Assembly: GCF_017302985.1 (NCBI RefSeq)
Contig: NZ_JAFIMU010000015.1
Location: forward strand, 62,001-126,000
DNA from: Corallococcus macrosporus
Lineage (GTDB): Bacteria; Myxococcota; Myxococcia; Myxococcales; Myxococcaceae
Length of the DNA: 64,000 nt
Direction of reading: 5' to 3'
Positions 32,487 through 35,110 of the stretch are shown here, piece after piece (position 1 is the stretch's first letter; every line of letters begins with the position of its first letter). Both the position numbers and the translations under genes were made by a program. The notes under the pieces are model-generated. The model was given only the letters and a program-made list of their open reading frames with translations, was not told the DNA's origin and ran no database searches.

Positions 32487-33392
32487 ATGAATGAACCCCG
32501 CCCCGACGTCGCCGAACTGACCTTCTTCACGACGGTCGCCAGCCTCCGCAGCTTCCGGAAGGCGGCGGACGAGCTCCGGGTTTCGCCGTCGACCCTGAGC
32601 CATGGGGTCCGCAGGCTCGAGGAGCGCATGGGGGTCCGCCTGCTCAACCGCACCACGCGGAGTGTCGCCCCCACGGAGGCTGGCGAAGCCCTGCTGGAGC
32701 GGGTGCTTCCCCTGCTTCAGGGCCTCCGGGGTGCGCTCGCGGAGGTCTCCGAAGGGGGCGGTCCACCGCGCGGCTCACTGCGGATCAACACGAACATCGT
32801 CGGAGCCCGGGTCCTGCTGCGTGACGTGGTCCCGGTGTTCCGCACGCGCTGCCCGGACGTCCATGTCGACCTGGTCATCGAGGGCCGCCTCGTGGACATC
32901 GTGGCCCAGGGATTCGACGCCGGGGTCCGGCTGAGAGAGGCCATTCCCCGGGACATGGTCGCCGTGAGCTTTGGAGGGGACACCCGGTTCGTCGCGGTCG
33001 CGTCCCCGAAGTACCTGGAGCGCCACCCGGCCCCCCGGACCCCTCACGACCTCTTGAAGCACGAGTGCATCCGCTACCGGTTCAAGAGCGGCAAGCTCTA
33101 CCGCTGGGAGTTCGAGCGCCGGGGACAGGCCCTCTCCATCGACGTGAACGGACCGCTCACGCTCAACGACGACGACCTGATGGTGCAGGCCGCGGTCGCC
33201 GGACACGGCATCGCGTACGTCGCAGAGCCGTTCGCGCAGCGCGACATCCAGGAAGGGAGGCTCGTCGTGGTGCTCGGCGCCTGGCTGCCCCAGGTCTCCG
33301 GGCTCGCCCTCTACTACCCGGGGCACCGGCAGGTGCCCCCGGCCCTGCGCGCCTTCGTCAGCGTGCTCAAGGAGTCACGGGCAGGCGGATGA
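32487..33392 (+). CDS. LysR-family transcriptional regulator
   Basis: A 301-aa LTTR. The N-terminal winged helix-turn-helix (about 8-66) reads 'FFTTVASLRSFRKAADEL' then 'SPSTLSHGVRRLEERMGVRL' and 'NRTTRSVAPTEAG'. The effector-binding domain fills the rest (about 90-295, 'GSLRINTNIVGARVLL', 'GFDAGVRLRE'). This resembles the subgroup that controls nearby oxidoreductases. The divergent SDR gene is the probable target and the 71-bp gap should hold the operator. Confidence 0.93.
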   Translation: MNEPRPDVAELTFFTTVASLRSFRKAADELRVSPSTLSHGVRRLEERMGVRLLNRTTRSVAPTEAGEALLERVLPLLQGLRGALAEVSEGGGPPRGSLRINTNIVGARVLLRDVVPVFRTRCPDVHVDLVIEGRLVDIVAQGFDAGVRLREAIPRDMVAVSFGGDTRFVAVASPKYLERHPAPRTPHDLLKHECIRYRFKSGKLYRWEFERRGQALSIDVNGPLTLNDDDLMVQAAVAGHGIAYVAEPFAQRDIQEGRLVVVLGAWLPQVSGLALYYPGHRQVPPALRAFVSVLKESRAGG

Positions 33393-33476
33393 GGCACCTA
33401 CGGATGTCCCACCCGGTGCGTCCTCCGCACAGAGGAGACCCGTCAGGACGCCCGGGTGTGCAGCTGTAGCTGTGTG

Positions 33477-33525
33477 GCAAAAAAGAGAGCGCTCGCCGGC
33501 ACCTTGGAGTTTTACCGGCGAGCGC
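33477..33525 (-). terminator. Intrinsic terminator facing left
   Basis: GCGCTCGCCGG (33489-33499) and CCGGCGAGCGC (33515-33525) form a perfect 11-bp stem with a 15-nt loop. On the minus strand it is followed by TCTCTTTTTT. This is the best rho-independent terminator in the window. It lies 430 nt past the glycosyltransferase stop codon. Confidence 0.75.
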
Positions 33526-33910
33526 CCCGGGCCGCGTGCCGACTGGCAGGGCCTCGTAAAGTCGCGGGCGGATGCGGAGCGGATTGAAAGCCTGGCCCCA
33601 CGCCACCTTCATGTTTCCTGCCGTCCGCCCCGCGTCCCTTGTTCCGGGCCCCGCGCTCGACGTCCGTTTCCCTCAAAACCCCTGCGCACCCGCGGTGATT
33701 CCTGCACCCGCCTGATCCGCCACCACCAGGGTGGGCACTCGCCGTGTCACCGGCAACGCCCGAGGCGCCATTACCACACCCCGCTCACCAATCTCCACGA
33801 AAATCGTGCTATTCCCATCTATAACCTGCGCACACGCAGGTCCCTGCGAGGGAACCGCCTCCCCCTTCCTACGAACGCGCCCGCCCCCAATTGCTTGAGG
33901 ACGGGCGTGC
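33480..33910 (-). ncRNA. Candidate structured RNA or long 3' UTR
   Basis: On the minus strand GATAAT (33911-33916) could be a -10 element. It is followed at once by a hairpin, CGCCCG/CGGGCG (33878-33907). Three tight stem-loops come next: TCCCT/AGGGA (33841-33853), CCTGCG/CGCAGG (33825-33840) and CACGA/TCGTG (33796-33808). The stretch ends at an intrinsic terminator (33477-33525). No good -35 is seen. It could be an independent RNA of about 430 nt or the tail of the glycosyltransferase mRNA. I see no tmRNA, RNase P RNA or 6S hallmarks. Confidence 0.3.
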
Positions 33911-33955
33911 ATTATCCGGATCGGTCTGACATTTCCCGGCCCTGGAGGGCGGGTT

Positions 33956-35110
33956 TCAGAGGGGCGGCAGCCCTGCCACCTGGCGGTACAGCGCATCATG
34001 CCGCCGCACCAGCTTCTCCAGGGACAGCTCCCGGGCGACGAAGCCCCGGGCGGCCTTGCCCATCTTCCGGGCCTCCTGGGGGTTGGCCAGCAGCCGGCGG
34101 AAGGCCTGGGCCAGCTGGGCGGGCCGCTCCGGCTCCACCACCAGGCCGCGCTCGCCGTCCGTGATGAGGTCCGGATTGCCGCCCACCCGCGTCACCACCA
34201 TGGGCAGCCCGGCCGCCATGCCCTCCATCACGGCGTTGGACATGCCCTCCGCGGTGGAGCACAGGACGCCAAAAGTCGCCTGCCCGTAGAGGGCCGGGAC
34301 GTCGCGGCGGTGCCCCAGGAAGTGCACCGCGTCCGCCACCCCCAGCTCCTGCGCCAGCTTCTCCAGCTCCGGCCGGCGCGGACCGTCTCCCACGAGCCAG
34401 GCGTTCAGCTTCGTTCCCTCATGACGCAGCATGGCAATCGCGAGGAGCAGGTCCTCCTGCCGCTTCACGGGGTGGTTCATGTTGGCGACGTGGATCACGG
34501 TGGGCACGCCCCCCGTGTCCGGAATCGCGTCCTTGAGCCCCTCCGCCGCGCGCGCGTCGAAGCGCTGGAGGTCCAGGCCGTTGTGGATGACGGAGATGCG
34601 CGAGGCGGGCAGCCCCTCTTCCTGGATGAGCAGCTGGCGGATGGCCTCCGCGTTGGCGACGACGTGGTCCGCCATGCGCGTCATCCGCGCGTGCAGCATG
34701 CGGCGGGCCTTGCCCTGCCAGTGGGACAGGTCCAGCCGGCCGACGATGACCTTCGCGCCCGCGAGCTTCGCGGCCGGCACCGCGAGGATGCTGGAGTAGA
34801 AGTCGTGCACGTGCACCAGCTGCACGCGGTTGGCCTTGAACCAGCGGGACATCCGGTGGATCTGCAGCAGCGTGTTGGCCTTCAGCAGGGACCCCTCGAG
34901 GGAGAACACCTCCGGCGCGTGGCCCAGCTTCCAGACCGACTCCATCAGCGGCCCTTCGCTCTCCAGCACCGACACCTGCAACTGGTAGCTGGAGGGCAGG
35001 CCTCGCAGCAGCTCCAGCACCTGGACCTCGGTGCCGCCAATGTGGAACGACCGGGTGAACTGCACCAGGCGGAGGGGCTCCTGCCCCATCCGCGCATCCT
35101 CACGCCGCAT
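33956..35110 (-). CDS. Glycosyltransferase family 4
   Basis: A 384-aa GT-B glycosyltransferase. The N-terminal acceptor domain has the loop 'HIGGTEVQVLELLRGL' (about 23-38). The C-terminal donor domain has 'VIHVANMNHPVKRQEDLLLA', 'WLVGDGPRRPELE', 'VHFLGHRRDVPALY', and the nucleotide-sugar motif 'STAEGMSNAVMEGMAAGLPMV' split as 'STAEGMSNAVMEG' and 'MAAGLPMV', containing the EX7E glutamates. It probably adds a sugar during surface polysaccharide synthesis at the inner membrane. The start overlaps the upstream O-antigen-ligase-like gene by 11 bp; an alternative ATG lies at 35089. Confidence 0.93.
   Translation of the reverse strand: MRREDARMGQEPLRLVQFTRSFHIGGTEVQVLELLRGLPSSYQLQVSVLESEGPLMESVWKLGHAPEVFSLEGSLLKANTLLQIHRMSRWFKANRVQLVHVHDFYSSILAVPAAKLAGAKVIVGRLDLSHWQGKARRMLHARMTRMADHVVANAEAIRQLLIQEEGLPASRISVIHNGLDLQRFDARAAEGLKDAIPDTGGVPTVIHVANMNHPVKRQEDLLLAIAMLRHEGTKLNAWLVGDGPRRPELEKLAQELGVADAVHFLGHRRDVPALYGQATFGVLCSTAEGMSNAVMEGMAAGLPMVVTRVGGNPDLITDGERGLVVEPERPAQLAQAFRRLLANPQEARKMGKAARGFVARELSLEKLVRRHDALYRQVAGLPPL

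Follow-up and report, generated by a model that had tools for sequence, protein, structure and literature searches.

A terminator hairpin with an invariant loop beside a glycosyltransferase gene in Corallococcus macrosporus: a candidate small RNA that may outlive its gene

Main Finding

The gene-free gap between a glycosyltransferase gene and a LysR gene in Corallococcus macrosporus probably makes a small regulatory RNA. The favored reading of this gap in the window (the whole 64,000-nucleotide stretch of DNA that was analyzed), given a probability of about 0.55, is that of an undescribed small RNA (sRNA) that began as an mRNA 3′ end and whose terminator loop acts as a pairing seed. Comparison of genomes shows conservation, covariation, synteny, and repeated gene loss at the locus. 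With an invariant single-stranded loop, a covarying stem, and the reading frame gone, these features would most simply be explained by an RNA whose loop is its pairing site.

The Gap and Its Neighbors

The gap (33393–33955) is flanked by the LysR gene on the plus strand and the group-1 glycosyltransferase gene on the minus strand. The initial annotation had described it as a gap without a gene, and the frames within it are indeed short or of poor quality only. The features discussed below are as follows.

32487–33392, plus strand: LysR-type regulator gene, convergent neighbor (open reading frame and domain annotation)
33956–35110, minus strand: glycosyltransferase gene (group 1), upstream neighbor on the same strand (open reading frame; Pfam Glyco_trans_1_4, 4e-36; syntenic in related loci)
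33911–33931, minus strand: block TGTCAGACC..GGATAAT, ending in GATAAT (conserved in Corallococcus-like and Myxococcus-like genomes)
33868–33894, minus strand: two-box promoter-like motif GCAAT-N16-CGTAGG, with the presumed transcription start just downstream (exact in 43 of 61 loci)
33788–33825, minus strand: strongly conserved block GTTATAGATGGGAATAGC.., matching the DUF4097 codons DGNS (sequence comparison)
33528–33556, minus strand: SL1, predicted hairpin preceding the terminator, kept in most lineages with varying sequence (predicted fold)
33487–33527, minus strand: SL2, terminator hairpin of 15 pairs with an 11-nt loop (alignment, covariation, and predicted fold)
33502–33510, minus strand: loop core ACUCCAAGG, the proposed pairing seed (invariant in 30 of 30)
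33479–33484, minus strand: terminator T-run of six T (sequence; conservation stops right after it in Corallococcus-like genomes)

Among named glycosyltransferase loci, the nearest belong to Corallococcus (C. exercitus at 96% identity), followed in order by Pyxidicoccus, Citreicoccus, Myxococcus, Archangium, and Hyalangium. The DNA of the gap is matched in 15 of the 16 genomes of the own-genus group (g1), the own genome counted, and its conservation in this group ends directly past the T-run. In most other matching genera, the match is confined to the terminator and at most some 95 nt of surrounding sequence.

A Two-Hairpin 3′ End With a Covarying Stem

On the minus strand, two hairpins span approximately 33556–33479, with the terminator last. 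The initial annotation had claimed a strong intrinsic terminator with a T-tract, an 11-bp stem, and a position 430 nt beyond the glycosyltransferase stop. The terminator and its distance hold (the 5′ foot lies about 430 nt past the stop), and the stem is longer, with 13 to 15 pairs when G-U is allowed. It is the sole strong intrinsic terminator in a scan of the 64-kb window (score 24 vs. 14 for the next site), whereas a generic tool counted one terminator-like site in 32500–35000 vs. 0.9 in shuffles, which is not above chance; the case therefore rests on comparison. Strong intrinsic terminators seem to be very rare in this genome, at one per 64 kb in the window scan.

The 476-nt minus-strand sequence folds with a z-score of −2.91 (1 of 100 shuffles equally stable), the last 89 nt with −3.69 (0 of 200), and the plus strand of the gap with −1.79 (4 of 100). 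In eight RNAs from relatives, the two-hairpin fold has z-scores of −3.9 to −6.5 (0 of 200 shuffles each), and the terminator hairpin forms in all nine RNAs folded, the window's included. SL1 is missing or folded differently in some lineages; at locus L066, for instance, the hairpin before the terminator is predicted at another place. The structure that had been proposed for the gap thus stands as a minus-strand element ending in a terminator, but its upstream hairpins do not share in this support: two-sided change was kept in 5 of 93 predicted pairs among 14 Corallococcus-like sequences, which gives no sign that these hairpins matter. For the 390-nt body, the consensus fold draws only −2.44 of its −109.81 kcal/mol from covariation.

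The terminator hairpin is identical in 14 sequences of the genus, so covariation becomes visible only across genera. An alignment of 30 terminators, selected from the matches listed across genera, has 98.2% of its stem cells paired, and both partners have changed in 7 of the 15 pairs; covarying base pairs, whose absence the initial annotation had named as grounds for giving up the RNA, are therefore present. Cells changed on both sides number 26 vs. 7.4 in shuffles. The covariation score is 0.275 vs. 0.165 in shuffles (0 of 500 as high) and lies at 0.035–0.091 with the partners slid. GC, CG, UA, and AU are all found at the innermost pair, and further pair types in the stem are not above shuffles (18 vs. 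16.6; 131 of 500). In the own genome, the loop-and-inner-stem pattern has one perfect match, the window hairpin itself.

Distribution of the Hairpin

The covariance model R1 scores at least 55 bits in 62 of 96 family genomes: 15 of 16 in g1, 6 of 6 in g3, 2 of 2 in g5, 4 of 4 in g6, 7 of 7 in g7, 1 of 1 in g8, 26 of 27 in g19, and 1 of 1 in g20. Other family matches, among those listed, reach at most 36.5 bits, and some of them represent the hairpin read on its opposite strand. In a phylum set of 195 genomes, matches outside the family occur in seven and do not exceed 27.2 bits; filtering was strict in the family search and in the phylum search, and both capped how many candidates were scored in each genome. 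The glycosyltransferase has no match at E 1e-60 or better in G027 (g1) or G074 (g19), so the whole locus seems to be missing from these two genomes.

Among 30 named loci, 23 carry the hairpin with a score of at least 68 bits. One of them is from M. xanthus AM003, in which the hairpin follows the glycosyltransferase at a distance of about 830 nt. As for the seven without a match, two (L172 and L194) stop at a contig end, three (L195, L197, and L198) hold more distant glycosyltransferases, and two (L187 and L192) have no hairpin in their stretches; in G005, apparently the same genome as L187, the hairpin lies further off. The sequence BNCN01000003.1 (L182), titled Comamonas sp. KCTC 72670, holds a myxobacterial locus (glycosyltransferase identity 78%, hairpin 77.6 bits), and its title is probably wrong.

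A second copy of the hairpin, with an identical loop, lies at another locus in four genomes (G035–G038). The gene ahead of it is one we take to be DUF47-like, and in L035, the one locus checked for frames, the copy faces a convergent frame.

This placement bears on the main alternative, itself rather unlikely, that the hairpin is simply the strong intrinsic terminator of the glycosyltransferase/DUF4097 unit, guarding the convergent neighbor and staying because an operon needs an end, with its loop kept for termination or folding. In the loci examined, the hairpin is always at a 3′ end and often faces a convergent gene, and both copies are placed where one gene ends and a convergent one faces it, which would suit a plain terminator too; a G+C-rich hairpin is followed by a T-run, as in any plain terminator. 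The loop of a plain terminator would, however, be free to vary, whereas here nine loop bases are fixed in 30 of 30 sequences while the stem changes, and a fixed 9-nt loop is unneeded for termination. Moreover, the five other terminator-like R1 matches examined in the family (L091–L095) are all without the loop core, and SL1 is extra structure. Conservation beyond that of a plain terminator, here the invariant loop core and the covarying stem, is instead what is expected of an sRNA from an mRNA 3′ end.

A Gene Kept, Eroded, or Lost

In other genera, the glycosyltransferase gene is followed by a gene for a DUF4097 protein (PF13349) and then by the hairpin, often with pyrD next on the opposite strand. 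Where DUF4097 is intact, the loop begins 42 to 78 nt past the end of the protein match on the same strand. The hairpin in these loci thus lies at an mRNA 3′ end and shares its terminator, as in 3′-end sRNAs; in the window, the gene is gone. With a match of E 1e-50 or better taken to mean an intact gene, 36 of the 62 hairpin genomes retain DUF4097 whole, and the other 26 have it eroded or lack it (15 in g1, 2 in g5, 6 in g7, 1 in g8, and 2 in g19). Two genomes outside the 62 also have the gene. In G001, it is followed by a divergent hairpin (29 bits), a terminator with a different stem and yet with CUCCAAGG in its loop; in G051, no hairpin is visible behind the gene.

Between the glycosyltransferase stop and the loop lie 786–847 nt in the intact loci listed and about 450–460 nt in g1 and g5. 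Elsewhere, this distance is 118–120 nt (G035–G038), 134 nt (G042), 301 nt (G067), 346 nt (G039), 371 nt (G056), or 513 nt (G040). A nucleotide profile built from 19 intact genes detects clear DUF4097 remnants in G040, G067, G056, and G039 (E 6e-43 to 1e-7). The profile also matches weakly, at about the same profile place, in 13 of 14 Corallococcus-like and both g5 sequences, with a best score of 3.3 bits vs. 4.0 for the best of 1000 shuffles. Because this score lies under the shuffle maximum, synteny and placement make a DUF4097 remnant in the window likely, and sequence leaves it unproven. The window genome is one of the 26 in which the gene is missing or eroded, and its gap is therefore probably the leftover of a DUF4097 transcription unit.

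A glycosyltransferase tree built from 53 of these loci requires the intact or lost label to change at least four times, with three of the changes forced by well-supported branches. Without regain, five or six losses of DUF4097 are counted, in a set of genomes gathered by hairpin presence, so that joint loss of gene and hairpin is visible only as in G027 and G074.

The ancestral state would be a hairpin forming the 3′ end of the DUF4097 mRNA, since the neighbors, the promoter-like motif, and the hairpin enclose DUF4097 in related genera. The Corallococcus-like and other lineages would then have lost the frame and retained the 3′ end, which suggests that the RNA itself is a selected product. The initial annotation had left the choice between an RNA of about 430 nt and a long, folded 3′ UTR; these look like two stages of one history, because the hairpin ends a DUF4097 unit elsewhere and the frame is gone here. 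A fuller proposal, somewhat short of even odds, is that a family-wide sRNA arose at the 3′ end of the DUF4097 mRNA and was more durable than the protein, and that repeated, independent decay of the frame left promoter and terminator hairpin as a pure RNA gene with the loop as seed.

It is improbable that the loop is bound by a protein, acts in cis (for instance, on mRNA stability), or serves as a sponge for another RNA. An invariant loop on a covarying stem would suit a protein site equally well, and in 36 of 62 genomes an mRNA continues to end in the hairpin, but a role confined to acting in cis on the DUF4097 mRNA leaves the hairpin's survival in the 26 genomes without an intact gene unexplained.

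Promoter-Like Motif and Other Conserved Blocks

The sequence GATAAT, which the initial annotation had taken for a −10 element, is present at 33911–33916 on the minus strand. It is doubtful as a promoter, given that the two-box motif downstream is conserved in more genera. The preceding TGTCAGACC followed by GGATA is common to several genera at the locus and occurs twice in the own genome (in the window and at G000:C7:1354082-1354099).

In the form G(A/C)AAT-N15-17-CGTANG, after the glycosyltransferase or before the second hairpin copy, an exact two-box motif is present in 43 of 61 loci vs. 1 of 61 in the control, the loci being related to each other and three genomes entered twice. The motif is exact before one of the four second copies and partial before the other three, and is absent from the main place in g7 and g8 loci. 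The motif resembles ECF-sigma promoters. The own genome has seven copies vs. one in the control, and the six copies other than the window's form no clear regulon. At L163, a GCAAT-N16-CGTAGG copy stands directly ahead of a frame with a signal-peptide-like start and is possibly served by the same sigma factor as the window motif.

The conserved GTTATAGATGGGAATAGC.. block is possibly a DUF4097 remnant or an internal promoter, and it is the site of a 15-codon frame (33771–33818) whose status is doubtful. In the intact DUF4097 genes of g19, synonymous conservation peaks at the codons GAT GCG GTA GAC GGG AAT .. GTG GTA (top window reached by 6 of 5000 permutations), and letters similar to this DAVDGN stretch recur in lineages without the gene; an internal promoter would be one possible reason. 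In L041:3574-4287 (minus strand) and its g19 orthologues, the DAVDGN..VV stretch combines unusually high synonymous conservation with codons ending in A or T, as if a second signal overlapped the frame.

That the gap codes for small peptides (15 codons at 33771–33818 on the minus strand, MGIARFSWRL....W, then an overlapping 32-codon frame) is very unlikely: all 14 Corallococcus-like sequences keep the first frame open and third positions make up three of the four variable sites in its first ten codons, but these four are all the informative sites, codons 11–15 vary 4, 4, and 3 times by position, the g5 counterpart carries a stop, and the 32-codon frame has indels between species.

Proposed Mechanism and Target Search

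The preferred reading, an sRNA with its terminator loop as seed, would make the gap a minus-strand transcription unit that is non-coding. Its RNA would start just after the two-box motif at 33868–33894 and end at the terminator (33479–33527), giving an RNA of about 380 nt that is perhaps cut to its last 75–90 nt (SL1 and SL2). Most likely, such an RNA would act in trans, its exposed ACUCCAAGG loop pairing with CCUUGGAG-like sites that hold a ribosome-binding core and so reducing translation of the target without Hfq. The loop core is complementary to CCUUGGAGU, which contains the core GGAG.

In eight genomes, CCTTGGAGT-N2-10-ATG occurs at 7 to 14 sites each vs. 1 to 5 for the reversed pattern. 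Among 30 loci examined from these 86 sites, an open frame of at least 200 codons spans the site in 28, although long frames across such sites are weak evidence either way in G+C-rich DNA, and these 30 loci yielded no shared or convincingly recurring start-site target. A string common to G018 and G063, followed on the G018 side (L116), was dropped as a target because its protein family is multi-copy and matched in 40 of 92 genomes. L116:1514-1711 and its relatives form a family of small proteins, matched as many as 24 times in a single genome (G005) and represented in 40 of 92 family genomes.

Relation to Known Small RNAs

Rfam 15 has no match at gathering score in the window. Six sub-threshold matches lie near the gap, the best being PhotoRC-I (E 0.0092; 20.4 bits vs. 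45). The element was not found in the literature searched (open-licence PubMed Central), where Pxr is the only characterized myxobacterial sRNA and nothing was found on Myxococcus xanthus with DUF4097. Cuckoo RNAs are sRNAs with C-rich loops directed against ribosome-binding sites; the window element likewise has a CUCC-containing single-stranded loop but differs from them in sequence and clade.

Pxr of Myxococcus xanthus is described as lying between nla19 and a NADH dehydrogenase gene, with a sigma-54 promoter and three predicted stem-loops (PMC5684412; PMC5568312). Like Pxr as so described, the window element is myxobacterial, has conserved stem-loops and paralogues in some genera, and would act without Hfq; unlike Pxr, it adjoins a glycosyltransferase gene and has two stem-loops (PMC5684412; PMC5568312). 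Identity with Pxr was rejected on gene context as these descriptions give it, the window neighbors being glycosyltransferase and LysR genes (PMC5684412; PMC5568312). Myxobacterial genomes have been reported to be without detectable Hfq homologues (PMC5568312).

Known sRNAs from mRNA 3′ ends include CpxQ, from the cpxP 3′ UTR, and MicX, from a promoter internal to an ORF; conservation is described as stronger in the CpxQ region than in the remainder of cpxP (PMC9438474). Similar to such sRNAs, the window element shares an mRNA terminator and is conserved beyond the needs of termination. In contrast to them, this candidate has its terminator loop as the most conserved part, and its reading frame has been lost in several lineages. 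The literature search, judged by titles and abstract openings, found no bacterial case of an sRNA surviving the decay of its gene, which is no proof of absence; the word 'pseudogene' does not occur in the review PMC9438474.

Significance

If the gap does encode an sRNA, it would be a second, family-wide myxobacterial one besides Pxr, with an exact candidate seed, and testable in M. xanthus. If the fuller proposal is true, the conversion of an mRNA into an sRNA would have been caught at several stages within one bacterial family. The locus offers a graded series of genomes, with the gene intact, eroded, or gone, for asking whether a regulatory RNA can outlive its protein gene.
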